Shown here one piece after another: positions 9,291-37,986 of a DNA stretch of 41,159 nucleotides. A program made the position numbers and the translations under genes. This DNA comes from a virus. A model generated the notes under the pieces. The model searched no databases. It saw nothing but the letters and a program-made list of their open reading frames with translations, and had not been told where the DNA came from. The DNA lies in IMG/VR virus record IMGVR_UViG_3300012920_000092, positions 1 through 41,159 of that record. One strand, written 5' to 3'. Position 1 is the first letter of the stretch, and each line of letters begins with the position of its first letter.

Positions 9291-12200
9291 GCATAAAAAA
9301 ACTATTTGACAATAACAAACAAGCTGTTACTGTCGGAAAATTCCTAAAGCTTAATTCTCCAGATGCACTTGGTGATGGAATAGAATCCGCTGCTCATCTT
9401 AAGGAAGCAGTAAAAAAGCGAGACTATTTTCTTCCACCCGTAGACTATTCAGATCCTGAAAACTTTGTCAAGTTTGGATCCGCTGAGCAATATTATAAAA
9501 ACGCCTTTGAATACATTTCCAGTTATTATCCATACGATGGATCTAACCTTGAAAGGGTTCAGTTTTATAATAAAATCAACCCGTTAGAAAAGTATATTCT
9601 TGAAGATGTGTATCCAACATCCACTGGGTTTATTACTATAGGTTCAAATTATGGCACCCCAACTGCCAATGCAACAGGGTATTATTCAACGCCAACAGAT
9701 GAATACATCCAAATCAAGGGCGGTCCACATTCGGGCTCAATTTACAATGAGGAAAAAAATAGAACATCAAATTTAGAATTTGGCGGAACCGATGGAACTA
9801 CTGTAGAATTCTTCCTCAAAAAGAACTCCTTAATTAATTCCTCAACTGAGTCTGAAAGACAAGTAGTTTTCGATCTTTGGAACGGCGCTACCACAACAGC
9901 GGCAGATTACGGACGACTAAGAATAGAACTCGTATCGGGATCAGAAGATCGTTTTTATGTAACCATGAGATCAGGTTCAAATGGTTTTACAAATATTCAG
10001 ATACCATCTGCTGGTGGTCAAACTATTTCTGACGGAACATTTAGAAACTTCTCTTTTGTCTTTAATACTTCTGGGTCTTCTCCAACAATCGACTTCTTCG
10101 TCAACGGGACTTGCGTAGAGACGGCTATTGCCGGCGCAGTTGGTGATATAGGACTTGTAACCGGATCGATGATTGGTAACATTGGTGCCTTGAGGACTGA
10201 CATTTCAGGACTCCCCGGTGCGGCTCAAGGGTACGGTAAATTGTCAGCTTCTGTTGATGAATTTAGATTTTGGAAAACAAACAGAAATGACGAACAAATT
10301 GGAAGATACTGGTTTGATAACGTAGGCGGCGGCACCGACAAATACGATGCCAATGTTTCGCTGGGTGTGTACCTCAAATTTAATGAAGGTATAACTCAAA
10401 CAGCCAGCGTTGACCAAGTATGTTTAGATTATTCTGGTAGGCTTTCGAATGGATTATTCGTAGGTTATGACGCAACTAGAAGCAGAAATACAGGATCGGC
10501 TATAAATTTACAACAATTGGAATCAGTTGTCGAAATTGGCGACCCTATTGTCAGAACTGATAATCCTTTATATACAGCCCTGAAAGCAAGATACATTCTT
10601 TCGGGAAGCAATTACGATTATAATAATAATGCCCGCTTGTTGAATCACTTTCCAAATTGGATCGTTGAGACAGAGGAAAATAACTCAAATGAACTTGTGA
10701 ACATTACACAAGTTATTGCAAGCTATTTTGATACCCTTTATAATCAACTGACTGCTCTAAAAGAACTAAGGCATATAAAATACATTAGCGGCAGCTTGGA
10801 TGAATCAATCAATGAATATCCATATAACGATAGACTTGTCGAGTCAATGGGACTTGAAATGCCAGAGTTCTTTGAAAATGCTGGCACTTTACAGCAGTTT
10901 TTGCAAAGAGACGAACAAATAAATTTTGATGATAGATTGGTTGAAATCAAAAACTCTATCTATAAGAACATTTACAATAACCTTGCATTTATTCTAAAAT
11001 CTAAGGGAACCGAAAAATCCATTAGAAACTTCATCAGGTGCTTAGGGGTTAGCGAAGAGATTATAGCCCTCAACACTTATCCTGACAACTCTGATTTTGA
11101 GATTAAGAGTAATTATCTTTCTACAACAAGTACAAAGAAGTTTGCAGATTTTACAGGGCTCCTTGATCAGTCTGATGATGAAGCGACTGTTTACCAGTAT
11201 TATGAATCAGGGAACTCCAACTCTAAGGGATTCATTACTGGTTCATCAACAATTCAAGAGTATGCTTTCGCTTTACAGGGCGAAGTAGTATTCCCAGATA
11301 AAGACAATCAAGATCTTCTTCCTTATAACGTGCCCCGAGTTTTGACAGCTTCGATTATGGGCTTTCATACTCCACTTGATACAGATCAAACTTCTACGGA
11401 CTTAACTTGGGAAACTCCAGCGCAAGATCATGGCTTACAAGTATATCTTGTCAGGTCCCCAGGAGAATATGCCAAAATTTATCAGCCAGACTATCGTGTG
11501 CGAGATGGTTACTTTATGGTCAAGGACCGATCAGGTGCAACTCTTCTTACAAGTTCAATTTTCAATGATGTATATGATAACCAGAAGTGGAATCTAACTT
11601 TATCACTGCGTCCTAAGAAATATCCTTTCACAGATGGCATTGTTGGCGCAAGTGTGGCAACTGATGGATACACGCTTGAACTTTATGGTGTAAATTACGA
11701 CACCGGAATCAAAAGAAATAGCTTTTTAGCTAGCGCTAGTGTTGCTTATGCAGTTGGTTCGGAAATAATAAAATCAAATAAAAGAGTATATGTCGGTGCT
11801 CACAGAACCAACTTCACTGGAAGTGTTATTGAAAACACAGACATCCGTGCATCAAGTATAAGATTCTGGACAGATTACCTGCCAACAGGAACGCTTGATT
11901 TACAAGCTCGTGAAGCGGACTCTTTTGGTCGTCAGAGTCCTTATAATAATGTTTATTCTTTCCAGGCAACAAATCCAAATGTTTATATACCAAAAATTCA
12001 AACACTTGCACTAAATTGGGATTTTGGAAATGTAACTGGTAGTGATTCATCTGGTCGATTTACAGTGGCAGATTTCTCTTCTGGATCTGCTGCTGGTGAT
12101 TATCCTGCCGAATATCAAGGATCAACCTTTAGTAAAATAAATCTTCGCCAGCACACAGGTCGTGGCGACTTCTTCAAGGCTAGCTTCACTCCTGTAAGAA

Positions 12201-15200
12201 AAGAATATATTTACACCGACAAACTCCAGATACCAGAGTATGTTGGTGGCGAGGAGATGGTAAAGGCTCTAAATGTTAATGAAAATACCTTTGGGATCTA
12301 TACACGTCCTGAGACTTTCTATTTCGCAGTAGAAAGAAGTATGTACAGAAGCATCTCTAACAGAATGTTGGAGTTGTTCTCTAGTATTGATGAGTTTAAT
12401 AATCTTATCGGCGAGCCCGTAAATAAATATCGTTTGAATTATAAGCGCATGGAAAAGATCAGAGAGATCTTCTTCAGAAAAGTAAAAAATGACATTCCTG
12501 ATCTTGAGAAGTACATTGATTACTACAAATGGCTAGATGCTTCAATGAATCAAGTCATTGAGGAGTTCTTCCCAGAGTCTGCCCGTCATGCTAGCGATGT
12601 AAGAAAAGTTGTTGAGAATCATGTTCTTGAGCGTCCAAAGATTCGACATAAGATTTCTATTCTAAAGAGTCGCCACCCTGATGACCCTGGTGGCATTTTA
12701 GGTGCGACTAGAGGCACCGTATGTTTAGATGCAGTAGGTTGGGGCAAAAATCATCATCCCATATCTGATAAAGAAAATGAAAACTGTACATGGTGGAGAA
12801 CTAGAGCCGAACGAGATATTTCACCCCTAGTAGCAACAGGCGGTGTATTACTGACACGAAACGCTATACTCAATGCTATTTCACGGGAAGTCGGCAAAAA
12901 CGATGCAGCAAACAAAGAACATAACTTAAATTCAGTTGTTTGTTTATCAGCCAATTTTATTCCTCCTTATTATGGTGGCACAAATCAAGACCTTAGTAAA
13001 AAACGTAGACTAAGAGACTTGACCTTTGATAGGTTTGAGGCATTAGAAGACTGTACAGATGAGTTGGAACCAAATCAGAAAAAGAAAATTGCTTTCCGAG
13101 CAACAAAAGATGGAGTTGAATATAAGGGTAATCTTGTAACTCCATTTACAGCGTTAAGTTCAAGTATCACTACGGGGTACAATGCATCCCTGGTCACAGG
13201 TGGATTGACAGGCATTAGCCTAACAAACCTTCATGAAGATTCTGTACATCCATTCCGACATAGTGTCCCAATGCAGGGACCATTCACCGAGCGATGGGTT
13301 GGTGGTATCCAAGCAAGGCACAATGCGCCATTTAGAACGGCAGATCGTGCCGAAGAATACAATTTAGAGATTGCTAGTGGCACTGGTTCTATAACCACGC
13401 TGACAACAGAAAACAAGCCTAAAGGTCAATACCTAAGAGGTTTGTCTTCTAAATCGCCGGTAAACATTAATAATATCAAAACTGTAATTTCTGGTAACGT
13501 TGTTGCTGACGGTGTTAGAAAAGTTGGAAACTATTCAAAATATTATGAAGTTGTGCAGGGTAATGATAGATCCCAAACAAATATGGATTTTGTTTTCACA
13601 AATGAAAATTATAACCATACCGCCCCAACTGCTTTCTTGACTCCCCCTAACAGAAGAGCCGCCGCTCCAGCTACAGCTACTATCGTAATTTCAGATTCTG
13701 GAGCTATTATCAACGGTGAAACCTTTATCCTCATTGATTCAACGGGTGTTAGTACAACATATACAATCAATGGTGGCGTTTTGCCAGCGGCTGGCGGCGG
13801 CACTGCTCCTACAGCTACAGTTGGTTTTTCTGGAGTAGGTGGTGGTGCTGCCGGTAAGATTGCAGCGGCCGCAGCAATAGCCATAGCCATCAATAACACC
13901 ACGGGAGCCAGTTACTCAGCATCTTCTGATGGTGTCGATACTGTGACAATTACTCAGGGTATTGGTGGTATTGCCGGCAACACATTTACAACCAACTCAA
14001 TGACTGGGACTACACTTAGTGACTTTATTGGTGGCGTTCCATCACTCACGGGCTCGGCAGATTACCCAGCCCCACGACAAATATCATCAAGAAGAATAAA
14101 TGAAACAATTATTGCGGATAGGTTCTCCGCCCCTGGTTCAAAGCAGGATTCCAAGCAACAGTTTAGAGATGTAAACTCAGACCAGTTCTCTCCAAATAAT
14201 GCACTTCCTTTCAGAAATATTGTAGTCAGGTTGCCCCATAGTGAAGACCTAAGAAAACATTCTGAGTTTGGTGGTTACGAGAGTGGAAGCACTACAGTCC
14301 CTTCAATTCACAAAATACAGAGAAATAGAGTCCAACAACCCCAGATAGGTGAAACGTTTCCAGTCACCACAATTATTACAGGAAGCACGTTTGATAATGC
14401 ATATGTGACCCGACCTGTTCCAGCGGCAGATAGATCTCAATGGACTTCTTACATATTAGGAGCAGACAACTCTGCTGTTCGGGATGAATATATTGGGCTT
14501 CGTTCAAAATACCCTCAGAATATTTCTTTTACAACTCAATCTTCTACTGAAATAGCGTCGTTTACTGATTCTGTATTTTCAAACATAAATAACGCTAACC
14601 AGTTTATTTGGGCAAATAACCGTGACTTCGTACCGTGGGTGCAAATAAGAAATTCTGAAAACCCATATGCAAAATATTATACACGCAAAAATACATATGA
14701 AATTCTTCCAGAAGAGGTAGTTTCGCTTCAAGCAGGAACAAACCTCCCAGAGATTTCATTTGCCGATGGCTCAAACGGAACTTTACCAACTCAAGTACGC
14801 CAAGTAACGGACAGAAAGAATAATGCATCCAATTATTATTTCTCTGTAGCTCTGAGGGAACCCCCTGTAACCTCAAGGTATAAACCTTTGGTACACCAAA
14901 TTAGAACTCCTCTTGGCACTCCTGCTAAAACTTCGAATAACAAAACAACAATAAGTTTGAAATATAGTTATGGCAATGACCTCATGGGGTTTGCTAATCG
15001 TGAATTGAACAGAAGGATACAGGGAAGATCCAAGTTTTCTTACGGAACAATAAAAAGACCGTATGAAATTATGAGAGAACAATTTGTTCCAGATGCTCCC
15101 AATTCAATTAGTGGTGTTGACTTAATAAAAGTATTCTCATATTCCGAAACAATATATCCAAAAGAAGTTTACACATATCTTTCTGGATCTCGTGCAAGAT

Positions 15201-18200
15201 TATCTTTTGTTAATGATTTCTGGCTTGATGATTCAAATGTAACAAGCTTCGATGCATCGTCTCTTGTAACTTACTCGGACATCCTGAACCCAACGATCCA
15301 GACAACATTAGTAAGACAACTCCCAAGGATGCTAGCACCGCACACAACTTCTCAAGGGTATGTTGTTCAAGCAAAAGAAAACACACCTTTCAATGCTTTA
15401 GATCCTTCTTATCAAATGGCAACTGGTGCTGGTTCTGCTTCTATTTGGCCTATGGACTCGTTCATGTTTGCAGACTCTACAGGGTCTTTAGCCACCGTTC
15501 TGACGGCTTCGGTTCCTGTTTTGTTGGCTGATGCTGCAACCATGCCATGTGGCGAATTAATGATGACACATTATGGAACAATAGATGATGGGCTTACAAA
15601 TACAACATATACAAATGGAACAGCTTCTTACCAAACGGCAAGCATAAACTCTTCACAATATGTGTATAACATTCCGGTTGCCATAGAGACGAGCACAGCA
15701 GTACCAGCCGTTGCTGCTCGTGCTGCTATTACAGCTAGTTATGATGAGGGGCAACTTCTCGCTGCGGCGAATGCCATTATTACCATAACTTCTTTTTCAA
15801 CGGCTGCCCTTGATCCATCTGGTGGATCATCTCTGACCGGTGGCCGGACCATTATAATTCCTGACAATTCAGGAAACACTGTGACTTTCTATTTCTCATC
15901 GGCGAAACCTCACGGCACTGTTACACGATTAAATCCTATCGAATATGTGGTTGACATAGGTGGTGTTACTAGTATTGTTGATGTGGCGAACTCATTGCAT
16001 AATGGGGTACTCCTTGCACAGTCAAATAGTGATCTTTTGGTAACACCTGACCCCGCAGCGATTACATCGGGCAAGGTATATATTGTCGCTGACGCTCTCG
16101 GTTCTGGAATAAATGGTACAGCAATAACTGGCACAGGAATTGGAACTGTAGCTACTCAATTGCCTTATGCCGGCGGGTCAGAATATACATATAACGCTAA
16201 AACTTTACTCATCGATGATGACTCTCACGGTACCGTAAGTTATAGTTTTGATTCCTCTTTGGCACACGGAAGCTCCAATCTAACCACTATTGGTACTTCA
16301 GGAGCAACAGCCGCACAAGTCGCCGCCGCTATACGCCAGACAATTAATTTGTCTCAAGGTGCTGGAAATATAAACGTAACTGCTGGGACTGTGGTAGGAA
16401 ATACAGTTCCTTTGACTGCGGATAACGCAGGGATTGCGATGAATGGTGAGCCCATAGCTGGATCTGCGGAAGCTGATGGCGGAATTGTGGCAGTGGATTT
16501 CGCCCACGGGGCAGCAGGTTATACCAGTATGGGATCCCGACCTGAACCCCGTTCTCCCGGCTCTGTCTACACAAGACCAGCGTGGACAGCAGGACTTAAC
16601 AGGCGTTTGGTTGATGGTCCAAATAAGGGCAATACGACTACTTCTGTTTATCCATTTTATAATAGTTATGAAGTGTTTGCCCAAGACATAAGGCTCGCAG
16701 CAAAAGATCACACGATTGTTCCAGAATATCGTATCAGTGAACATGTATCAACATTTCAGCAGCAAGGTTCTTTGTTTGCACTTGTGTCTGCCTCCTTAGA
16801 GATCACAGGGGCAGTCAACACAATCAATAATGGAGCATTTCCTCAGTTTTACGACAGATATTGCGAAACAGATGATATAGAATTCTTAGAAGATTTCATG
16901 CCAACTGACGAAGCAGACAGAAACTTTATCTTTAATAAATATCCAAGACACTTTGAGATGAACTCAGAGGCTGTTATCAAGCTTCTCCCTTACAGCGGGT
17001 TTTATCCAGTTGATAGAACTTTAGATATAGCAGCGCTGTTTAGCTCCTCTTATGGGCCAAATGCAATTATAACTGGTGCCGATGCTGCAAAAACCCAAGC
17101 GTGGAGATCTATTCTGAGACCATTTTATGCACCAGGCATTATGTATAATTCAATTAAGTCTGGTATAGCGGTAGATTACCCAATCAGAAGATCTGGAAGA
17201 AATGATACACAATTTGAGCCAGTGGCAATTACAGCCGCCGATCCACTACAAGGTGCATTAAGCGGAGCATTAGACGCCTCAGTGACTTCTACGGGACAAG
17301 TTCCTGGGAACTCAAGAAGAAGTCGCCCCAACTCAGACTGGGGTACTACTGAAGCCAATAAGTTTTTCTGGGCAGACAGGTTGCCATTTGAGACGATCTT
17401 GGACCCTGTTGATGCTCTTCAACAAGGTTTTCAAAATCCAACAGTATTATCTGATATCAATCAGTTGTTGGTTCTTGATGCGAGTGGGTCAATCAATCCC
17501 AAATCTCTTGACGACTCTTTATATAAGAAAGCAGTATCAAACTTTTTGGCGAACGTTCCCAAGTTCTTCTTGCGTAAGAAGACGAACAAGTTCGGATCAG
17601 ATGGACACTTGACAAAGTTTGTATCTCAGTTTGGCAAACCAGCAACGTCAGAAGGTGAAACTTCTGTACCTGTAAGGTCTGTTGAAGTTGATAAGGATGC
17701 TGCATATATGATGGAGATTGGACTTCTCAAAACAGACAACTTCAATTTCTACAGCAATCCATACGCTTTTGGTATACCAACTGCTACAGGTTCTCAAGGT
17801 TGGGATTCTTTAAATACCAATCAAGTTCCTACATCTCCAAACTGGCCTAAGCACCGTGGCGAGTTTGCTCCATTTACTCCTCCACATTATTACGGACCAT
17901 CTCTTGTAAGAATTACGTTTGTTCCGTCTGGAGATAAGGACGCATATACACTAGATGAAATTATCAACAATGATCGTGGCGAGGTATATGTACAGTTCTT
18001 AAATGAGAGTGGAAGTTATTATGATTTTACCTCTGGGTCATTTGTTGATCGAGACGGTAACACTGTCACAACAACAACTTCTCCTGATTATGGCTGGAAC
18101 CGAGCCTGGCAGAATAGAATGGATATTGATGCATCTATTAATATTAATAACGAATTTCCAATCGATAGTGGCGGAACGTATAAATCATCAGATCCTAACA

Positions 18201-19609
18201 AGTGGGTGATTATGCCCAAGTGGGAATGTCCAACCCTTGACTTTCCAGACAGGTCTAAGCCTGCCGACCAATATGCTTTTTCATCTTCTGTGACTCCTAG
18301 TGAATACACTTCATCAGCACAGGGAATGTGGCACCAGTATGGCATCATGCCTAATAATAATGAGGGTTCTTACCTTTATATCAAGGATATTCCTACTGGC
18401 GATAGTGAGGAGTTTGATTATGTTGCTATTGGGACAACCCCTGCATCTGATTCAATCCGGACATATACCTATGTGAGTAAGGTTCCAAAGTTTGTTTCAG
18501 ATGCTGATAAGAGCGTCAAATCATTAGCAGACTTGTGTGGTTTTGATCCTGAAGAAATTATACGCTCAGGTTTTGACTTCTCAAAGGCTAAGCGCCTCGG
18601 CGAACTTGCAGAAGACGATGAAAAGTCAATGTCCGAAGCAATACTTGCTTTACCATTCTATCTCGACAAAGAGCAAAAGCCAAGGCTTATCACACTCCAA
18701 GCACCAGCAGATAAATTGGGACCAAAGATAAAACAGTTTAGAAAACAATTTACTAAATTCTCATTACCTCCCTCTTTGGCTTCTAAACTATTAGGCATGG
18801 TTCCAAGTGGATATCCAAACATTCCTGATGTCATAAATCCATTTGGTGGAGATGATTACGATTCAATCCTTAGTGGAGAGTCTATGGCTGCTACTCCTGT
18901 GGTATACTTGATGGAACACAAAGTAAATCTGACCCGCCAAGACCTGGCTGATATCTGGCAAGGAATTATGCCAGATCTTTCTACCAATTTCAAAACAAGC
19001 CTATCGGCGGTTGATCATTATATGCCTGGTGACAGGGTAGAAGAGGAAACAACAAGATTCCCAGAAGTTCTCAGGGAACAATTGAACCTTGGTGTCAATA
19101 GAGATGGTCACCCAAGATATGATCTTCTTGATATTGCCGATCATCCAGACACCCTTGGACTTTTTCCAGATATCAAGTGGCTTGTCTTCAAAGTAAAAGA
19201 AAGGGGCATTTCAGACTACTCTCAAATGGTAGTAGAGGAAGTTGAGGGTGATAATGCCTTTACGTTTGATAGCATACGACAAACTTTATTGAATGAAGGA
19301 CTTGGGCAAGAGATCGCAGACAGACTGCTTAGTGATCGAGATAAGTTCTCGAAGAGTATTTATATTTATAAGCACAAGTTGCTTGACCCAACTTTCAACT
19401 GGCCTTACGATTTCTGTTCTTTGATTGAACTTGGAAAAATAAATACTAAGATTGGCTTCCGACCCGAGTTGAATAAAGAAGTTCAAGAGTATGAAGCAGA
19501 AGGTCGATTTATTGCAGACCAGCTTGAAGAAGCAGTCGAGCAAAGGCGAACAGGTGCCCTCGGTGCTGATGGTTTACCAGGCTTAGACACTAGAAGGAAC
19601 TTCACATAA
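9287..19609 (+). CDS. Giant virion protein with LamG-like domains (3,440 residues)
   Basis: This gene takes up a quarter of the window. Residues ~150-370 look like a LamG / concanavalin-A-like lectin domain (NLEFGGTDGTTVEFFLKK, then FRNFSFVFNTSG, IDFFVNGTCVE and SASVDEFRFWKTNRND). A second LamG-like unit lies at ~715-865 (WNLTLSLRPKKYPF, YTLELYGVNYDTG, RVYVGAHRTNFTGS, SSIRFWTDYL). Between them, residues ~559-588 (IYKNIYNNLAFILKSKGTEK) form a helical linker of a kind I associate with large tail proteins. Three alanine/glycine-rich modules lie at ~1458-1588, ~2160-2295 and ~2298-2418. The C-terminal ~1,000 residues are mixed and unassigned. Translation starts in an ATGA overlap with the previous gene. 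A peripheral tail or fibre component binding glycans is the best inference. Confidence 0.85.
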   Translation: MSIKKLFDNNKQAVTVGKFLKLNSPDALGDGIESAAHLKEAVKKRDYFLPPVDYSDPENFVKFGSAEQYYKNAFEYISSYYPYDGSNLERVQFYNKINPLEKYILEDVYPTSTGFITIGSNYGTPTANATGYYSTPTDEYIQIKGGPHSGSIYNEEKNRTSNLEFGGTDGTTVEFFLKKNSLINSSTESERQVVFDLWNGATTTAADYGRLRIELVSGSEDRFYVTMRSGSNGFTNIQIPSAGGQTISDGTFRNFSFVFNTSGSSPTIDFFVNGTCVETAIAGAVGDIGLVTGSMIGNIGALRTDISGLPGAAQGYGKLSASVDEFRFWKTNRNDEQIGRYWFDNVGGGTDKYDANVSLGVYLKFNEGITQTASVDQVCLDYSGRLSNGLFVGYDATRSRNTGSAINLQQLESVVEIGDPIVRTDNPLYTALKARYILSGSNYDYNNNARLLNHFPNWIVETEENNSNELVNITQVIASYFDTLYNQLTALKELRHIKYISGSLDESINEYPYNDRLVESMGLEMPEFFENAGTLQQFLQRDEQINFDDRLVEIKNSIYKNIYNNLAFILKSKGTEKSIRNFIRCLGVSEEIIALNTYPDNSDFEIKSNYLSTTSTKKFADFTGLLDQSDDEATVYQYYESGNSNSKGFITGSSTIQEYAFALQGEVVFPDKDNQDLLPYNVPRVLTASIMGFHTPLDTDQTSTDLTWETPAQDHGLQVYLVRSPGEYAKIYQPDYRVRDGYFMVKDRSGATLLTSSIFNDVYDNQKWNLTLSLRPKKYPFTDGIVGASVATDGYTLELYGVNYDTGIKRNSFLASASVAYAVGSEIIKSNKRVYVGAHRTNFTGSVIENTDIRASSIRFWTDYLPTGTLDLQAREADSFGRQSPYNNVYSFQATNPNVYIPKIQTLALNWDFGNVTGSDSSGRFTVADFSSGSAAGDYPAEYQGSTFSKINLRQHTGRGDFFKASFTPVRKEYIYTDKLQIPEYVGGEEMVKALNVNENTFGIYTRPETFYFAVERSMYRSISNRMLELFSSIDEFNNLIGEPVNKYRLNYKRMEKIREIFFRKVKNDIPDLEKYIDYYKWLDASMNQVIEEFFPESARHASDVRKVVENHVLERPKIRHKISILKSRHPDDPGGILGATRGTVCLDAVGWGKNHHPISDKENENCTWWRTRAERDISPLVATGGVLLTRNAILNAISREVGKNDAANKEHNLNSVVCLSANFIPPYYGGTNQDLSKKRRLRDLTFDRFEALEDCTDELEPNQKKKIAFRATKDGVEYKGNLVTPFTALSSSITTGYNASLVTGGLTGISLTNLHEDSVHPFRHSVPMQGPFTERWVGGIQARHNAPFRTADRAEEYNLEIASGTGSITTLTTENKPKGQYLRGLSSKSPVNINNIKTVISGNVVADGVRKVGNYSKYYEVVQGNDRSQTNMDFVFTNENYNHTAPTAFLTPPNRRAAAPATATIVISDSGAIINGETFILIDSTGVSTTYTINGGVLPAAGGGTAPTATVGFSGVGGGAAGKIAAAAAIAIAINNTTGASYSASSDGVDTVTITQGIGGIAGNTFTTNSMTGTTLSDFIGGVPSLTGSADYPAPRQISSRRINETIIADRFSAPGSKQDSKQQFRDVNSDQFSPNNALPFRNIVVRLPHSEDLRKHSEFGGYESGSTTVPSIHKIQRNRVQQPQIGETFPVTTIITGSTFDNAYVTRPVPAADRSQWTSYILGADNSAVRDEYIGLRSKYPQNISFTTQSSTEIASFTDSVFSNINNANQFIWANNRDFVPWVQIRNSENPYAKYYTRKNTYEILPEEVVSLQAGTNLPEISFADGSNGTLPTQVRQVTDRKNNASNYYFSVALREPPVTSRYKPLVHQIRTPLGTPAKTSNNKTTISLKYSYGNDLMGFANRELNRRIQGRSKFSYGTIKRPYEIMREQFVPDAPNSISGVDLIKVFSYSETIYPKEVYTYLSGSRARLSFVNDFWLDDSNVTSFDASSLVTYSDILNPTIQTTLVRQLPRMLAPHTTSQGYVVQAKENTPFNALDPSYQMATGAGSASIWPMDSFMFADSTGSLATVLTASVPVLLADAATMPCGELMMTHYGTIDDGLTNTTYTNGTASYQTASINSSQYVYNIPVAIETSTAVPAVAARAAITASYDEGQLLAAANAIITITSFSTAALDPSGGSSLTGGRTIIIPDNSGNTVTFYFSSAKPHGTVTRLNPIEYVVDIGGVTSIVDVANSLHNGVLLAQSNSDLLVTPDPAAITSGKVYIVADALGSGINGTAITGTGIGTVATQLPYAGGSEYTYNAKTLLIDDDSHGTVSYSFDSSLAHGSSNLTTIGTSGATAAQVAAAIRQTINLSQGAGNINVTAGTVVGNTVPLTADNAGIAMNGEPIAGSAEADGGIVAVDFAHGAAGYTSMGSRPEPRSPGSVYTRPAWTAGLNRRLVDGPNKGNTTTSVYPFYNSYEVFAQDIRLAAKDHTIVPEYRISEHVSTFQQQGSLFALVSASLEITGAVNTINNGAFPQFYDRYCETDDIEFLEDFMPTDEADRNFIFNKYPRHFEMNSEAVIKLLPYSGFYPVDRTLDIAALFSSSYGPNAIITGADAAKTQAWRSILRPFYAPGIMYNSIKSGIAVDYPIRRSGRNDTQFEPVAITAADPLQGALSGALDASVTSTGQVPGNSRRSRPNSDWGTTEANKFFWADRLPFETILDPVDALQQGFQNPTVLSDINQLLVLDASGSINPKSLDDSLYKKAVSNFLANVPKFFLRKKTNKFGSDGHLTKFVSQFGKPATSEGETSVPVRSVEVDKDAAYMMEIGLLKTDNFNFYSNPYAFGIPTATGSQGWDSLNTNQVPTSPNWPKHRGEFAPFTPPHYYGPSLVRITFVPSGDKDAYTLDEIINNDRGEVYVQFLNESGSYYDFTSGSFVDRDGNTVTTTTSPDYGWNRAWQNRMDIDASININNEFPIDSGGTYKSSDPNKWVIMPKWECPTLDFPDRSKPADQYAFSSSVTPSEYTSSAQGMWHQYGIMPNNNEGSYLYIKDIPTGDSEEFDYVAIGTTPASDSIRTYTYVSKVPKFVSDADKSVKSLADLCGFDPEEIIRSGFDFSKAKRLGELAEDDEKSMSEAILALPFYLDKEQKPRLITLQAPADKLGPKIKQFRKQFTKFSLPPSLASKLLGMVPSGYPNIPDVINPFGGDDYDSILSGESMAATPVVYLMEHKVNLTRQDLADIWQGIMPDLSTNFKTSLSAVDHYMPGDRVEEETTRFPEVLREQLNLGVNRDGHPRYDLLDIADHPDTLGLFPDIKWLVFKVKERGISDYSQMVVEEVEGDNAFTFDSIRQTLLNEGLGQEIADRLLSDRDKFSKSIYIYKHKLLDPTFNWPYDFCSLIELGKINTKIGFRPELNKEVQEYEAEGRFIADQLEEAVEQRRTGALGADGLPGLDTRRNFT
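13660..14049 (+). repeat. Ala/Gly-rich repeated module, copy 1, inside the giant LamG protein
   Basis: This segment encodes residues ~1458-1588. It has a strand pair (TIVISDSGAIINGETFIL, then GVSTTYTING), an Ala-rich helix (KIAAAAAIAIAINN) and a second strand pair (DGVDTVTITQGIGGIAGN). This 'set value, alanine helix, evaluate, GN' pattern recurs twice more in the same protein. Local base composition is visibly richer in G+C than the flanks and includes an eight-base GCGGCCGC. Confidence 0.55.
15765..16540 (+). repeat. Ala/Gly-rich repeated modules, copies 2 and 3, inside the giant LamG protein
   Basis: Two adjacent diverged copies encode residues ~2160-2295 and ~2298-2418. Copy 2 shows RTIIIPDNSGNTVTFYFSS, VTSIVDVANSLHNGV and GSGINGTAITG. 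Copy 3 shows KTLLIDDDSHGTVSYSF, ATAAQVAAAIRQTINLS and NAGIAMNGEPIAGS. The shared layout is a strand pair, an 'A..A...I...I' helix, then a strand pair ending in a Gly-Asn turn. Similarity to copy 1 is in layout more than identity. Confidence 0.5.
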
Positions 19610-32838: not shown

Positions 32839-33366
32839 ATGAAGATAACAAAACAACAAATTCGTCAGATTGTTGAGGAAGAAATAAAAAACATCTTACT
32901 AGAAGATGATGAGCCCAAGAAAGACGCTTGCTACAGAAAGATCAAGGCAGCAGTACTGAAAAAAGGTGGGACTTGGCCTAGTGCTTATGCCTCTGGAAGA
33001 TTAGTGCAGTGCCGAAACAAAGGCGCAGCAAATTGGAAAGAAGGCGAGACAAAGAAAGAAAATATTGTATATAATCGTCTTCGCCAAATGGTTGAGCAAG
33101 AAATTTCCAACCTTAACGAGAAAAAGAAGAAAAAGAACACGCTAGGTGACTGGTTTGATCAGCAGGGTCCCCCTGGACCAGAAGGCGGTTGGGTAGATTG
33201 CAACACCTGTCGCAAAGATAAAAAAACAGGTAGGAAAAAATGTAAAAAATGCGGAAGAGACACGGGTGAAAAAAGAGCAAAGTACCCCAAGTGCCGCCCA
33301 ACTCCGTCAGCTTGTAGTAAGCCAGGTAACTACGGAAAAAAATCAAAGGCAGGCAAAAAAGGATGA
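32839..33366 (+). CDS. Tagged protein: MKITK N-terminus, 'WPSAYASG' module, internal second tag, Cys-rich module
   Basis: The product has 175 residues in two tagged units. Residues 1-16 (MKITKQQIRQIVEEEI) are the recurrent N-terminal peptide. Residues 29-67 form a basic module (CYRKIKAAVLKK, then TWPSAYASGRLVQCRNKGA), a type I associate with marine phage proteins. Residues 77-94 (YNRLRQMVEQEISNL) repeat the tag pattern inside the chain. Residues 117-175 form a Cys/Lys-rich module (WVDCNTC, KKCKKCGRDTGEKRAKYP, KCRPTPSACSKPG) that may bind zinc. The C-terminus is very basic. It looks like a head-to-tail fusion of two cargo genes. Its stop overlaps the next start (ATGA). Function unknown; nucleic acid binding is plausible. 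Confidence 0.78.
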   Translation: MKITKQQIRQIVEEEIKNILLEDDEPKKDACYRKIKAAVLKKGGTWPSAYASGRLVQCRNKGAANWKEGETKKENIVYNRLRQMVEQEISNLNEKKKKKNTLGDWFDQQGPPGPEGGWVDCNTCRKDKKTGRKKCKKCGRDTGEKRAKYPKCRPTPSACSKPGNYGKKSKAGKKG

Positions 33367-33890
33367 AGATCACCAAATCACAACTAAGAAAGATCATTCT
33401 AGAAGAGATCAACAAAGAAATCCAACCCAAGGTAGAGAAAGATATTCTAGACACACTTGAGGTAGAGGGTGGTGCCGCTGGACTAGACCCACTGGTTGCT
33501 GCTGCGAAAAAAATTGCTAATGAAATTACAAAAAAAGATATAATAAATCTTTTACAAAAGATGAAGAAGGTCAAAGAGCATGAGCACGGAGACTACTACA
33601 TCAAAGAAGAAGTTGAAGAACTTGAAGAAGCTAGTAAGTCATTTGACAAAGATAAAATGAAGTGCAATAAAAAGCGATATATTAGAAAAGGCGAGACTGG
33701 GCACGGCAAGAAGCAAAAAGTTGTCAAAGCGTGTGAGAAAGGCAAAGAAAAAATTGTCAAGTTCGGTGATGCTAAAATGAGAAATAACAAGGATAAAAAG
33801 AAAAACAGAAAAAACTTTAGAAGCCGGATGAATTGTGATAAACCAGGCTCTAAACTAAAAGCAAGATATTGGGCTTGCAAGGACTGGTAA
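33363..33890 (+). CDS. Tagged protein: MKITK N-terminus plus basic 'RYWACKDW' module
   Basis: The product has 175 residues. It begins MKITKSQLRKIILEE, the clearest example of the tag, with I12-L13-E14 as a T4 gp21-type cleavage candidate. Residues ~20-90 are helical and acidic and include a HEHGDYYI segment. Residues ~98-175 form a Lys-rich module with four Cys (C101, C124, C158, C172) and conserved-looking text: VVKACEKGKEKIVKFGD, KKNRKNFRSRMNCDKPG and KARYWACKDW. I associate this module with small proteins of marine phages but do not know its function. It overlaps both neighbours (ATGA upstream, TAATG downstream), so expression is tightly coupled. Nucleic acid binding is a guess from charge. 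Confidence 0.78.
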   Translation: MKITKSQLRKIILEEINKEIQPKVEKDILDTLEVEGGAAGLDPLVAAAKKIANEITKKDIINLLQKMKKVKEHEHGDYYIKEEVEELEEASKSFDKDKMKCNKKRYIRKGETGHGKKQKVVKACEKGKEKIVKFGDAKMRNNKDKKKNRKNFRSRMNCDKPGSKLKARYWACKDW

Positions 33891-34330
33891 TGAAAAAGAT
33901 AATTGTAAAATGGAGAAAATTTGTTGATAGTGCTAAAAAGTATGTTTGCCCACCTGCAACACAAGACTTAAAACTAAACACTAAAAACCGTGACTCTGCT
34001 ATCCACGCAGAGCATATCAAGTACGGACCACTAAACGTTGACGAGCCAGGTGATTATTGGGAAAAAATAGCAAAATACTGGAACACATCAGTCAAAGCAG
34101 CTAAAAAATCTTTATGCTCCAACTGTGTAGCATTTGATATATCTCCAAGAATGGACGAATGTATGCCTGGCGTGACCACAGATAAAGACGGTCGCCTGGG
34201 TTACTGTTGGATGCATCATTTCAAGTGCCACTCCGCTCGGGCTTGTTATACTTGGGCAAAAGGTGGACCCATAGATACTGACAAAATATCCCACGAATGG
34301 CAAGATAGGAATAAGTTCCCAGAACAATAA
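33890..34330 (+). CDS. HiPIP-like cysteine-rich protein with a 'WRKF' N-terminus
   Basis: I place the start at the ATG at 33890 (TAATG overlap), giving 146 residues beginning MKKIIVKWRKFVDSA. That N-terminus matches the Nudix protein at 34505. The core is rich in Cys: C76-x2-C79, C91, C106, then C113 and C119, with His109, His110 and His114 close by. CSNCVAFD, then ECMPGV, then LGYCWMHH follows the order of high-potential iron-sulfur proteins ('C.xC', 'C...PG', 'G.wC..w'), although the C79-C91 spacing is shorter than the classical one. A 4Fe-4S or other metal centre is therefore likely but not proven. A further block (FKCHSARACYTWAKGG) ends the core. No signal peptide is present, unlike typical HiPIPs. 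Confidence 0.72.
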   Translation: MKKIIVKWRKFVDSAKKYVCPPATQDLKLNTKNRDSAIHAEHIKYGPLNVDEPGDYWEKIAKYWNTSVKAAKKSLCSNCVAFDISPRMDECMPGVTTDKDGRLGYCWMHHFKCHSARACYTWAKGGPIDTDKISHEWQDRNKFPEQ

Positions 34331-34331
34331 A

Positions 34332-34508
34332 ATGAAAGAACGCCTAACAAAGCATCTTAGAGAGCAGAATATGACATACTTGCAGCATCTTGCACATGCT
34401 CTCAAGTATTCAGTAGTCTTAGCTTCTTGTTCGTTTGTTTTGGTGTTTCATGCTTTCTTGCCTTTTCTTTTCGAAAAGTATGCCTCCGACAGGGTTGACA
34501 TAAAATGA
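34332..34508 (+). CDS. Small membrane protein, DUF6356-like (58 residues)
   Basis: This short gene starts one base after the previous stop (TAAAATG) and its stop overlaps the Nudix start (ATGA), so it fills the space between two real genes exactly. The product begins MKERLTKHLREQNMTYLQHL and continues with one hydrophobic span at about residues 26-47 (YSVVLASCSFVLVFHAFLPF). The 'MTY..HL..A', 'HA..PF.F' and 'tAS/yAS' landmarks match the DUF6356 family of small bacterial and phage membrane proteins. The function of that family is not known to me. The N-terminus is not one of the two tag types. A membrane-acting role during infection is possible. Confidence 0.72.
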   Translation: MKERLTKHLREQNMTYLQHLAHALKYSVVLASCSFVLVFHAFLPFLFEKYASDRVDIK

Positions 34509-34909
34509 GAAAGCTCTTGACGGAGTGGCGCAAATATATTATGGAAGCAAAAGATACAAACCGGGTTGCAAAAGTTATTCTAACAAGAGGCAATCAGGTT
34601 TTGTTGCTCCGTGGCGCATCAGATTTTTATGAGAACACTTGGGACTTGCCTGGCGGGCACATACAGGAAGGTGAGGAAGAAATGACCGCCGCCGCCAGGG
34701 AAACAAAAGAAGAGACAGGGCTAGAAGTAAAAGATCTAGAAGAAGTTCTAGACACCCCACAAATAATTTATTACAAAGCTAGACTCCCAGGGGGAGAAAT
34801 AAAATTAAGCTCGGAACATACAGCACACAAAATGGTCGATCAAAACACTATCGACAACGAAGACATTTCTCAGGAATTCAAGACAGCCGTAAAACAATCC
34901 TTTTCATAA
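34505..34909 (+). CDS. Nudix hydrolase with an N-terminal 'WRKY' peptide
   Basis: The 134-residue product carries a complete Nudix box at residues 51-73: G-x5-E-x7-RE-x-x-EE-x-G-L (GHIQEGE, then RETKEETGL). The catalytic Glu pair is present; position U of the box is Thr, a mild deviation. The substrate (nucleoside diphosphate derivative, damaged dNTP, capped RNA or NAD) cannot be told. In front of the Nudix fold lies MRKLLTEWRKYIMEA, which has no role in the fold, matches the N-terminus at 33890, and ends in a Y-I-M-E-A like the T4 internal-protein signal (F-I-A-E-A). Translation begins in an ATGA overlap. A virion-packaged Nudix enzyme is the inference. Confidence 0.88.
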   Translation: MRKLLTEWRKYIMEAKDTNRVAKVILTRGNQVLLLRGASDFYENTWDLPGGHIQEGEEEMTAAARETKEETGLEVKDLEEVLDTPQIIYYKARLPGGEIKLSSEHTAHKMVDQNTIDNEDISQEFKTAVKQSFS

Positions 34910-34924
34910 ACTAGTTACTTTATG
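34908..34924 (+). repeat. Shared leader element without Shine-Dalgarno, copy 2
   Basis: The 17 bases aaactagttactttATG overlap the Nudix stop and end with the start of the membrane protein at 34922. Fifteen of 17 positions equal copy 1 at 31009-31025. Again there is no Shine-Dalgarno sequence. Its role is unknown. Confidence 0.4.
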
Positions 34925-35404
34925 AGCAAGGAAAGAGATTTCTATAGAAAAATGCAGGAAGACGCTCGCAACTCTATGTTCGAGCCGGAGGTTATTGACG
35001 TAACCCCTCCTTCGACAAAGAAGACTGTAACTGCAAAACCCAACTACCTTTCAGCAGTCGTTTGGACTTCGGTTGTCGCAACTGTGGTCTGTACGATTTT
35101 TATGGGTCTCCTTTTGTATGTTGTGAATGAGAGCCGAATTGAAGAGCGACTTGAACAGGCTGCGAGCCACGCTCTTTACAATTTGGAAAATGTAATCAAG
35201 CAGCAGAGTATAGAGTTACAGCAATTGAAGGCAGAAAATAAAAAGATATATAATCACATAAAATTCTGGACTCCTTTTGAGCACAGACTCCCACCAGGCG
35301 TAAAAGAAAAGTGGGACATCCCAGGGTATGGTCTACCAAGATATGAGTACCAATCCCATTATATTTGTCAGGAGGGCAACTTATGCTTACCTTTCTTGGA
35401 GTAA
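34922..35404 (+). CDS. Single-pass membrane protein with a coiled-coil outer domain
   Basis: The product has 160 residues. The N-terminal ~42 residues are hydrophilic and probably cytoplasmic. One membrane segment follows at about 43-67 (YLSAVVWTSVVATVVCTIF, then MGLLLYVV). The rest lies outside, with a probable coiled coil at about 70-110 (LEQAASHALYNLENVIKQQ, then ELQQLKAENKKI) and a short tail with two Cys. Topology by the positive-inside rule is N-in, C-out, type II. I recognise no family. The gene overlaps the site-2 protease gene by 22 bases, so the two are translationally coupled. The layout (short cytoplasmic end, one span, outer domain) is that of RseA-type site-2 protease substrates, which suggests a partner or substrate. 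This is inference. Confidence 0.75.
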   Translation: MSKERDFYRKMQEDARNSMFEPEVIDVTPPSTKKTVTAKPNYLSAVVWTSVVATVVCTIFMGLLLYVVNESRIEERLEQAASHALYNLENVIKQQSIELQQLKAENKKIYNHIKFWTPFEHRLPPGVKEKWDIPGYGLPRYEYQSHYICQEGNLCLPFLE

Positions 35405-36186
35405 TTGTTTTAGTAATCTTTATTCACGAGTTGGGACACTTTGTTGCTGCTCGTGCTTGCGGTGTGGCAGTTGATAGTTTTTCAATAGGTTTTGGGAAGG
35501 TTCTACTCAAGAAAAAGCTTTGGGGAACTGAGTGGCGTTTGTCTTTGTTACCTTTTGGTGGATATATCAAACCACGTGGCGAGGATGACTATTATAATAA
35601 GAGAAATGATCCCCAATCTTTTTGGGCAGCATCACCACTGGCTAGAATAATAATTGCGGCATATGGACCCTTGTTTAACTTATTGCTCCCTTGGCCCTTA
35701 TACTTTCTTATGCTTGTTGGTCAACCATATCCAGATGTTGTTGTTCCCGAAGGAGCCCAGCCGGCAAGAATTGGTGTTGTGGAAGCAGCAGGTTATGCTC
35801 ACAAAATATCCACAAAGATGTATGCTAACATTTGGCAAGCATTGAAAGCTTCTGGCGAAAAAGAAATGACAATCAAAGATGTGGGTGGTCCTGTTGCCGT
35901 TTACGAATTTACGGAACAAGCAAGAAAAAGAAGTTCAGAAACAGGAGACTGGGGATTCCTTATAGACTGGATAGCCTTCTTCTCGATTAATTTAGGAGTA
36001 ATAAATCTATTACCGATCCCAGTATTAGATGGTGGGCATATTGCTATGTCTGGGGTTGAGATTGTTACCCGTAGAAAGCTGACCATTAAAACACGAAATG
36101 TACTAAATATGATAGGTCTGGTGATGATATTTGGAATCTTTGCTTTAGCAATAACTTCTGACATATTTCGCCTTGCTGGAATTTAG
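35383..36186 (+). CDS. Site-2 protease, M50 family (RseP-like), lacking a PDZ domain
   Basis: I choose the ATG at 35383 because GGAGGG (35371-35376) is ideally placed; a TTG at 35365 would bury that site. The 267-residue product has the zinc motif HELGH at residues 15-19 inside the first membrane span, a GPLFN (95-99, G-x-x-x-N type) motif, and the third zinc ligand Asp216 in NLLPIPVLDGGH. The surrounding blocks are RseP-like (LLPFGGYIKPRGEDD, then VGGPVAVYEF). These enzymes cut membrane-spanning helices. Bacterial RseP is ~450 residues with two periplasmic PDZ domains; here only ~30 residues (PYPDVVVPEGAQPARIGVV) replace them. All catalytic residues are present, so activity is expected. Confidence 0.87.
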   Translation: MLTFLGVIVLVIFIHELGHFVAARACGVAVDSFSIGFGKVLLKKKLWGTEWRLSLLPFGGYIKPRGEDDYYNKRNDPQSFWAASPLARIIIAAYGPLFNLLLPWPLYFLMLVGQPYPDVVVPEGAQPARIGVVEAAGYAHKISTKMYANIWQALKASGEKEMTIKDVGGPVAVYEFTEQARKRSSETGDWGFLIDWIAFFSINLGVINLLPIPVLDGGHIAMSGVEIVTRRKLTIKTRNVLNMIGLVMIFGIFALAITSDIFRLAGI

Positions 36187-36223
36187 GAACTATTTATAAA
36201 GACCTTTGCTTTGAGAGAATAAA

Positions 36224-36541
36224 ATGAAAATCACAAAACAACAACTAAGAAGAATTATTCAAGAAGAGCTACTCAAAGAGTTTGGCTCGGAAGAGTACGG
36301 ACCACAAACCAAAGAGTTTGAGCCAATTCCAGGCGTAGATTTTGATAATCCCAAAGAAGCGCTGCTTCGTCAAATTGTTTCAGACAAACAAAGAGGCGAA
36401 GTAGAAGGCGTAATGGTTGATTTATTTACTGCTTCCGCTATTGTGTCTGTCTTAGATGCTATTAACGATACTAACAAGGAGAAACTCTTGGCGTTGCCTG
36501 TTGACCGAATGGCCGACATCGCATTCAAGATGATGAAATAA
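36224..36541 (+). CDS. Tagged small acidic protein (105 residues)
   Basis: It begins MKITKQQLRRIIQEELLKEF, the recurrent tag with I12-Q13-E14 as cleavage candidate. The body has an acidic, proline-containing linker (residues 21-45) and a compact helical C-terminal part (VDLFTASAIVSVLDAIND, then LLALPVDRMADIAFKMMK). I associate this C-terminal pattern with small marine phage proteins of unknown function. It is the first gene of a run of five tagged genes in a row and is preceded by a 37-base gap with CTATTTAT (36190-36197). The joint to the next gene is one base. Confidence 0.78.
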   Translation: MKITKQQLRRIIQEELLKEFGSEEYGPQTKEFEPIPGVDFDNPKEALLRQIVSDKQRGEVEGVMVDLFTASAIVSVLDAINDTNKEKLLALPVDRMADIAFKMMK

Positions 36542-36542
36542 A

Positions 36543-36764
36543 ATGAAAATCACCAAATCACAACTACAACAAATCATCAAAGAAGAGCTTCAAACAGAGA
36601 TGGACTATTCCCAAGAGGGGAGAGATGAAAGCTTTCAAGATGTTATGACTGATGCAGGATACTCAAGATTGATTCAGTTGGTCGAAGAATTGCTAATGCA
36701 AAATCCTGAAAACCTCATCGCTGTTGAGATGAATAAAATATTGTCTGGAACCTGGGGATACTAA
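36543..36764 (+). CDS. Tagged small protein (73 residues)
   Basis: It begins MKITKSQLQQIIKEELQTEM (I12-K13-E14). The body of about 50 residues is acidic and helical (FQDVMTDAGYSRLIQLVEEL, then LMQNPENLIAVEMNKIL) and ends GTWGY. No family is recognised. It is the shortest of the tagged series, which makes a domain other than a small helical bundle unlikely. The start follows the upstream stop by one base, and the same holds downstream. Its DNA start is nearly identical to those at 36224 and 37154. Confidence 0.75.
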   Translation: MKITKSQLQQIIKEELQTEMDYSQEGRDESFQDVMTDAGYSRLIQLVEELLMQNPENLIAVEMNKILSGTWGY

Positions 36765-36765
36765 A

Positions 36766-37152
36766 ATGAAAATTACAAAACAAGAACTTACACAAATTAT
36801 TAAAGAAGAGCTTGAAGCTGAAATGAACGAGGGACATTACGACGGACCTTATGGCGATGATATTGACACGCCAAGTCTTCAAGCTCAGATGGAAACTGCT
36901 ATTCTTGCTGCGGTTGAGGCATTGGAAGAAGGCGACTTAGAGGCAGCTATGGCAGCTTTCCCAGAAAGACTACTCCAACAACTACGACCTTATGAGGGTC
37001 CAGTCGGCAGCGGACCATCGGCAGACATGGAAGAATACGAAAGTGATTACCGTGACCCGCCCAGCGAGCCACTTGATATGAGTGGGGGACGCAAGGTCAG
37101 CAGAGCACAAAGAAGGCGTGAAGCCGAAATGATGAAAGACTACGATATCTAA
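36766..37152 (+). CDS. Tagged acidic protein (128 residues)
   Basis: It begins MKITKQELTQIIKEELEAEM (I12-K13-E14). Residues ~35-70 form an acidic, alanine-rich amphipathic helix (METAILAAVEALEEGDLEAA). The C-terminal half is low-complexity and probably unstructured (Gly/Pro/Asp/Glu, then a basic SRAQRRREAEMMKD end). No family is recognised. The opposite strand contains a long open frame here, which I treat as a codon-bias shadow. Head or injected proteins are often flexible like this, but that is only consistent, not evidence. Confidence 0.75.
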   Translation: MKITKQELTQIIKEELEAEMNEGHYDGPYGDDIDTPSLQAQMETAILAAVEALEEGDLEAAMAAFPERLLQQLRPYEGPVGSGPSADMEEYESDYRDPPSEPLDMSGGRKVSRAQRRREAEMMKDYDI

Positions 37153-37153
37153 A

Positions 37154-37648
37154 ATGAAAATCACAAAATCATATCTACGGAAACTCATCAAAGAGACAAT
37201 CCAAGAAGGCTGGGAAAACGAGAAAGCCTGGACAGTCACAATGAGAAATTCTGACACTGGAAAAACAGAAGAAGTACATGTATGGACAGGCGCTCCCGAC
37301 GAAGAGGAAGCAAAAGTAGTTGCCAAATCAACATCGAAGTATGCGGGAAAAGAGTGGGTTGCTGACGCCGCAGAGTTGAAGGAATCTACGGCTAATAGCA
37401 TAAAAGAGGAACTTTCTAAATCCGACATGGAGATGCTACAGTCAGCCGTAGAGTCAACTAGGAGAAATTCAAAGAGTGGATTCAAGCTGCGCCCCATCGA
37501 CGTTATACCTGCGCTTGAGTTATCGAAAAGGTCCTTCGAAAAAAACATGAAAGACGAAAAGCTAAAGAGAAAAAAACTAGCACAAGTCGAAAAGTTAATA
37601 AAACACGTAAGCAACAAGGGTATCCCGCTAAGGCTTATGAACTTATGA
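37154..37648 (+). CDS. Tagged protein (164 residues)
   Basis: It begins MKITKSYLRKLIKETIQEGW, with I12-K13-E14. Residues ~24-72 look like a small alpha/beta unit (AWTVTMRNSDTGKTEEVHVW, then EEEAKVVAKSTSKYAGKEW), reminiscent of short beta-hairpin plus helix proteins. Residues ~80-164 are helical and lysine-rich (EKNMKDEKLKRKKLAQVEKL). No family is recognised. Its stop overlaps the next start (ATGA at 37645), so the two tagged genes are coupled. Confidence 0.75.
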   Translation: MKITKSYLRKLIKETIQEGWENEKAWTVTMRNSDTGKTEEVHVWTGAPDEEEAKVVAKSTSKYAGKEWVADAAELKESTANSIKEELSKSDMEMLQSAVESTRRNSKSGFKLRPIDVIPALELSKRSFEKNMKDEKLKRKKLAQVEKLIKHVSNKGIPLRLMNL

Positions 37649-37986
37649 AAATCACCAAAGCCCAACTCCGTGAGATGGTGAAGCAACAACTTGAAGAACG
37701 TTGCCAAAAAGGCTATAAGACCCACCCAACTCGCAAGACCAAAAAGATGTTCGGAAGAACGTATAGAAATTGCGTCAAAGCAGAGTCCGTGATAAATGAA
37801 AAGAAAGACCCTTACGAAGTCATGGGACTTTTACTTAATGCCCGATTGCGTCTTCTAGACATTAAACGGGCAAAAGACCGAGCAAAGCCAGAAGACCTTG
37901 GCGTTACTATTTCGCCCGCACTTGATAAACTTGAAGAAGAACTTCTTGAATTGGTAGATGTTTTACCAAGCATGTTGAAGTTCTAA
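37645..37986 (+). CDS. Tagged protein with a 'CQKGY...NCVK' module (113 residues)
   Basis: It begins MKITKAQLREMVKQQLEER; the I-x-E at 12-14 is lost, but L16-E17-E18 offers an alternative L-x-E. Residues 20-47 (CQKGYKTHPTRKTKKMFG, then RTYRNCVKAE) form a small basic module with two Cys. I associate it with many marine phage proteins, where it is often joined to different partners. The C-terminal ~50 residues form a Leu-rich helical hairpin (EVMGLLLNARLRLLDIKRAK, then LDKLEEELLELVDVLP). Function is unknown. It is the last gene of the tagged run. Confidence 0.76.
   Translation: MKITKAQLREMVKQQLEERCQKGYKTHPTRKTKKMFGRTYRNCVKAESVINEKKDPYEVMGLLLNARLRLLDIKRAKDRAKPEDLGVTISPALDKLEEELLELVDVLPSMLKF

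Follow-up and report, generated by a model that had tools for sequence, protein, structure and literature searches.

High-potential iron-sulfur proteins (HiPIPs) are exported electron carriers of bacteria, and an Fe-S cluster is also known in a phage virion protein, in the lambda gpL-type tail-tip domain. HiPIP-like [4Fe-4S] subunits occur in glycyl radical enzymes as well, namely the beta subunit of benzylsuccinate synthase (BSS-beta), the gamma subunit of 4-hydroxyphenylacetate decarboxylase (HPAD-gamma) and MASS-beta, described in a 2025 paper (PMC12358834). In phage T4, the internal proteins and Alt are packaged via short N-terminal peptides, which gp21 trims (PMC3012670, PMC5694885), and the polyvalent proteins of phages have been surveyed as a class (PMC5512222). 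We compare these systems with a small protein encoded in a 41-kb virus record of IMG/VR (IMGVR_UViG_3300012920_000092), positions 1 to 41,159 of which are called the window below. The window carries T4-like baseplate wedge genes, and at 9287-19609, between the baseplate genes and later structural genes, it holds a single 3440-aa open reading frame (ORF).

The gene and its distribution

The phage protein for which we predict a HiPIP fold is encoded at 33890..34330 on the plus strand (146 aa plus stop), and its ATG overlaps the TAA of an upstream ORF at 33363-33890. The gene is real and not a chance ORF, because comparison with relatives gives pS values of 0.52-0.92 against pN values of 0.03-0.14 (dS far above dN), indicating strong purifying selection, and because at least 597 relatives were found in a first scan of IMG/VR. 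Further IMG/VR scans seeded with divergent members returned several more phage groups. The motifs that the initial annotation had picked out, CSNC (C76 and C79), ECMPGV (C91) and GYCWMHH (C106, H109 and H110), are all in this ORF, together with C113, H114, C119 and an additional C20 close to the N-terminus.

The family is essentially phage-only. A scan of 84,980 species genomes of bacteria and archaea matched no more than seven contigs, each belonging to a metagenome-assembled genome; five of the seven are close relatives of the phage family and hence likely viral, and on these counts we rejected a cellular origin. Seven annotated phage records matched, each labelled 'high potential iron-sulfur protein' by its depositors; this name is thus already present in GenBank entries, where it was assigned automatically, and our literature search found no study of phage HiPIPs. 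A distant member occurs in a cultured phage as gp68 of Roseobacter phage CRP-13, which keeps all five cysteines with the same x6/x5 spacing described below; we considered whether gp69 and gp68 are a split gene and rejected this, because all five cysteines lie in gp68 alone. PHROG 4020 matches the family weakly (best E 0.0019). One related contig (L041) carries two copies of the gene, at 3169-3633 and 6001-6465.

Predicted fold and candidate cluster ligands

Sequence searches reached HiPIPs barely or not at all. Single-sequence Pfam and PDB searches of the window protein gave no matches, the family profile found nothing in the PDB beyond weak matches to 2Fe-2S ferredoxins and coronavirus nsp3, and the Pfam HIPIP model stayed below its cut-off, with no hit in the window protein and E 0.061 in 1 of 14 members. 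When the family profile was aligned with 13 HiPIPs by hhalign, the probability was 10.8%, with 9-10 columns aligned around the CxxC only, and the HiPIP assignment therefore rests on structure. An AlphaFold2 model of the window protein, built without templates from a 91-sequence alignment of phage sequences, had a mean pLDDT of 87, with low confidence in the first 15 residues. Its top PDB match in Foldseek was a HiPIP, at a non-significant E of 0.16, and VIA-align returned 14 entries with Z>=2, of which 13 were HiPIPs (Z 3.9-4.8) and the 14th was the HPAD small subunit. A second model, of a podovirus homologue (L240) that is 24-30% identical and lacks C91, had a pLDDT of 89; HiPIPs filled its Foldseek ranks 1-15, with probabilities up to 0.96 and a best E of 0.011, and VIA listed 14 HiPIPs (Z 4.0-5.7) followed by BSS-beta, HPAD-gamma and MASS-beta. 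For both models the matches are modest in strength (Z under 6, Foldseek E above 0.01) and insufficient if taken alone. Because one small fold class tops both lists, starting from two divergent proteins, we predict a HiPIP fold for the window protein, and the structure prediction called for in the initial annotation thus came out in favour of the HiPIP-type fold suggested there. The lambda gpL-type domain, which belongs to the tail tip and not to the head, was absent from the structure-search matches of both models.

The likeness to HiPIPs (PF01355; e.g. 1hip, 1isu and 1hlq) extends beyond the search ranks, as the predicted fold spans nearly the entire HiPIP chain, the family has the CxxC-C-C order with a C3-x12-C4 spacing (x13-14 in HiPIPs), and CxxW follows the final cysteine. 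Unlike classical HiPIPs, the protein is phage-borne, with a long loop between the second and third ligand cysteines, an extra near-invariant C113 and added N-terminal residues. The HiPIP signature, in the PROSITE-type form C-x(6,9)-[LIVM]-x(3)-G-[YW]-C-x(2)-[FYW], matched three HiPIP controls and 0 of 99 homologues. The N-terminus of the window protein also showed no hydrophobic export signal, the best 12-residue Kyte-Doolittle mean being 0.4 against 1.8-2.0 in HiPIP precursors, as the initial annotation had supposed. As signature, Pfam score and export signal are all lacking, we place these proteins outside the classical HiPIPs, in a phage family of their own for which a HiPIP fold is predicted.

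The earlier contrast with periplasmic electron carriers is incomplete, because glycyl radical enzymes are known to have HiPIP-like [4Fe-4S] subunits (PMC12358834). These subunits (HPAD-gamma, BSS-beta, MASS-beta/gamma) resemble the phage family in having a HiPIP-like fold outside the classical HiPIP role and inter-cysteine loops of varying length (C32/C35/C51/C86 in MASS-beta), and HPAD-gamma has an extra cysteine 5 residues ahead of its last one. They are also the nearest non-HiPIP structural matches, so the phage protein might serve a glycyl radical enzyme, of the phage or of its host, as an accessory subunit in the way that BSS-beta or HPAD-gamma does. We consider this extremely improbable, since no glycyl radical enzyme, NrdD-type or other, was found in 12 related phage contigs, which are possibly incomplete; with PF13597 and PF01228 both absent from them, a phage-encoded partner enzyme was rejected.

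The conservation of the cysteines and the register of the models point to the same four residues. C76, C79, C106 and C119 are present in 137/137 non-redundant homologues, and C113 in 136, the sole exception being L358, in which FIAQAV replaces FICHNL; in a smaller set of 99 non-redundant homologues all five are invariant. The C106-x6-C113-x5-C119 spacing is fixed, and the loop from C79 to C106 is variable, spanning 21 to 57 residues in the family. In the window model, C119 lies as far from the last aligned residue as the fourth HiPIP cysteine does from the partner of that residue in 1isu (126/62, C55), 1hpi (125/71, with C65 counted from an alignment), 1hlq (125/74, C68) and 1hrq (126/84, C77), and the same C-terminal register holds for C121 of the podovirus homologue. 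Residues 1-42 of the HPAD small subunit align with model residues 74-125, placing C79 on C6 and C119 on C36. It follows from these alignment end-points that C119, and not C106, would pair with the fourth HiPIP cysteine. Taken together, register and conservation point to C76 and C79 of CSNC as candidate ligands 1 and 2 (34115..34126, plus strand; supported by the equivalence with the HPAD small subunit), C106 of GYC as ligand 3 (34205..34207, plus) and C119 as ligand 4 (34244..34246, plus), the last followed by W122 in the C-x-x-W of HiPIPs.

The initial annotation had instead proposed a classical HiPIP-type electron carrier with C76, C79, C91 and C106 as ligands, and the window copy does show the order C-x2-C, C, G-Y-C on which such a mapping could be built. 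However, C91 (in ECMPGV; 34160..34162, plus) is dispensable: it occurs in 54/99 homologues and in 54/135 of the larger set, and the model of the podovirus homologue, which lacks it, is HiPIP-like all the same. As the C-terminal register fits C119 and the HiPIP signature is unmatched, this mapping is very unlikely, and C91 is probably not a ligand. Although C79 and C91 are indeed separated by the 11 residues that had been called shorter than in classical HiPIPs and taken as a hint of possible zinc, the argument falls once C91 is not the third ligand; the relevant spacing is 26 residues in the window protein. The best reading is a single [4Fe-4S] site on C76, C79, C106 and C119 with the extra C113 (34226..34228, plus), which would lie with H114 in the C106-C119 hairpin. 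C113 sits where HiPIPs have an aliphatic residue; it may be buried, may serve as an alternative ligand or may be a reactive thiol.

The same residues could bind another metal. If the HiPIP fold held one or two structural zinc ions and no Fe-S cluster, the protein would be packaged as a binding module and carry out no redox chemistry, a reading that we consider unlikely although it has several points in its favour: five nearly invariant cysteines and one histidine also suit zinc, several weak viral model matches are annotated as zinc-finger or zinc-ribbon, and an A-type Fe-S carrier gene (PF01521) is missing in 10 of 12 relatives. Against it, the top solved structures for both models are HiPIPs and HiPIP-like [4Fe-4S] subunits, the CxNCxxF and CxxW motifs agree with HiPIPs, and the A-type carrier gene lies upstream in the other two relatives, adjoining the HiPIP-fold gene in one (L042, 5259-5573) and 4 kb off in the other (L031, 1520-1834). 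With 2/12 contigs only, we rejected the carrier as a constant neighbour. Fe-S is favoured over zinc because of the fold and, weakly, because of these two neighbouring carriers.

N-terminal peptides, fusions and head assembly

The first 19 residues, MKKIIVKWRKFVDSAKKYV (33890..33946, plus strand; mostly low model confidence), resemble a capsid-targeting peptide. Peptides of two related kinds, MKxLLxxWRKFLxE and MKITKxxLRxIIxEE, start 6/26 window genes but 0/221 internal Met, so the head-targeting peptide suspected in the initial annotation corresponds to a statistically real N-terminus. In two relatives the counts were 12/221 gene starts vs 2/1290 internal Met, both of the latter probably being misassigned true starts, and 7/227 vs 0/1192. 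The carriers are otherwise unrelated and include NUDIX and GNAT proteins, a weak ART-PolyVal match and a DUF3293/SAM-lyase-like protein, and in G001 and G004 the HiPIP-fold gene lies within a block of genes sharing this N-terminus. Among the homologues, the N-terminal motif is present in 36/65 from myoviruses, 0/73 from podoviruses and 0/5 of the DSL type.

These peptides resemble those of the T4 internal proteins and Alt in being short, common to unrelated cargo and mostly followed by an [LI]xE site, and a gp21-type protease is likewise encoded in relatives (PF03420 in 10/10 large related contigs tested; the window itself is a fragment). An [LIVMF]xE site lies near residues 12-15 in 10/10 first-type peptides examined in relatives, and most close relatives of the window protein keep the [LI]xE motif, e.g. 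FLQEE or FIKEA. In the window copy no [LI]xE motif follows the peptide, which reads VDS (FVDSA) without Glu. The system differs from that of T4 in this missing Glu and also in the peptide sequence and in its cargo, a metal-binding-type domain whose packaging we infer.

Several neighbours in the window begin similarly. The NUDIX hydrolase at 34505..34909 (plus) has the same peptide type (MRKLLTEWRKYIMEAK, with IME followed by A), the upstream ORF at 33363..33890 (plus), whose stop codon overlaps the HiPIP-fold start, has the N-terminus MKITKSQLRKIILEE, and a Cys-rich ORF with PSAYASG and CNTC modules at 32839..33366 (plus) starts with MKITK. Within 32839-37986, seven small ORFs (starting at 32839, 33363, 36224, 36543, 36766, 37154 and 37645) open with an MKITKxxL-type peptide and then diverge, and this stretch is possibly a cargo island with a common address tag. 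The same N-terminal peptide precedes an ART-like start in two further contigs, at 17254-18363 of L267 (YHYTNG) and at 9957-10307 of L274 (YHGTS), the latter with a weak ART-PolyVal match; these proteins call T4 Alt to mind.

Fusions also link the domain to head proteins. It is fused to S78 or XkdF prohead proteases in seven distinct contigs and five arrangements, and in a viral model library, chains auto-named prohead protease, portal, XkdF and Dps carry it. Two neighbours of the window gene have counterparts fused to the domain elsewhere: the C-terminal phrog_7595 domain of the upstream ORF (33636..33887, plus) directly precedes the HiPIP-fold domain inside one prohead-protease polyprotein (L211), and modules homologous to the Cys-rich ORF at 32839 are fused behind the domain in five contigs (L016, L017, L033, L043 and L046). 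In DSL-LC01, the HiPIP-fold gene is followed by genes with the annotations capsid maturation protease and major capsid protein; the DSL-LC01 paper makes no mention of the protein. In podoviruses the gene is commonly 2-4 kb upstream of the terminase. All contigs are possibly incomplete. The fusions, neighbours and prohead proteases link the domain to head assembly more strongly than could be seen from the sequence of the window alone.

One fusion, a single 653-aa chain (L163, 2788-4746), combines ChaB, the HiPIP-fold domain, the anti-CBASS protein Acb1 (E 1.4e-25) and an XkdF prohead protease; this chain places a counter-defence enzyme within a head-protease polyprotein. The mixing of the HiPIP-fold domain with effector (Acb1) and head-protein domains in multidomain chains is reminiscent of phage polyvalent proteins (PMC5512222), although the window copy stands alone; the survey does not mention the module, as 'iron-sulfur' gives no matches in it.

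Apart from these genes, the window encodes an M50 site-2 protease at 35365-36186 (PF02163, E 1.6e-57), with a predicted membrane protein beside it (34922-35404), and this protease is kept beside the HiPIP-fold region in 3/85 related loci.

The domain might also work inside the prohead only, helping to assemble the core or to regulate or recruit the prohead protease, and have no role after infection. Such a role would fit the fusions, in which the domain stands before or after an S78 or XkdF protease or within a chain auto-named portal protein, and also the gene positions beside capsid genes in DSL-LC01 and ahead of the terminase in podoviruses. Nevertheless, only 16 of 394 fetched ORFs are fusions, several of these being repeats of the same contig, and the remaining 378 are stand-alone; one fusion also bears Acb1, which acts in the host; and the same N-terminus is found on neighbouring NUDIX, GNAT and ART-like enzymes, which are typical of injected cargo as known from polyvalent proteins (PMC5512222). 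A role confined to the prohead is therefore rather improbable in our judgement.

Proposed role during infection

Our preferred explanation, which we hold at slightly better than even confidence, is that the window protein is a non-exported HiPIP-fold domain, likely with a [4Fe-4S] cluster, that is associated with the head, packaged and injected, and acts early as an Fe-S redox or structural effector. The domain would be a mobile module of tailed phages tied to head assembly. In the T4-like marine lineage it stands alone and would be sorted by its N-terminal peptide into the prohead core, along with NUDIX, GNAT and ART-like proteins, and in other phages it is built into prohead-protease polyproteins. 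Once packaged, the product would enter the new host together with the DNA and be active there early on, as a small effector of Fe-S redox or structural type. The likeness to polyvalent proteins and the co-occurrence with Acb1 favour such an early function in infected cells. A wider proposal, that several types of tailed phages (T4-like myoviruses, podoviruses and S78/XkdF phages) deliver a HiPIP-fold [4Fe-4S] module in the capsid as an early redox effector or as a guard of the packaged DNA, is tentative, and we would not yet expect it to hold.

If our preferred explanation is true, a large phage family with a HiPIP fold, five conserved cysteines and repeated head-protease fusion would place Fe-S chemistry in a new setting, and if the wider proposal holds as well, iron-sulfur proteins delivered by virions would form a general class. 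With this family one could also ask directly whether metalloproteins are injected by phages. Shared N-terminal peptides and fusions offer a route to listing the cargo of uncultured marine phages, beside known effectors such as Acb1. This large phage family, often fused to or encoded beside head-building proteins, suggests that some viruses package and inject a HiPIP-fold protein.
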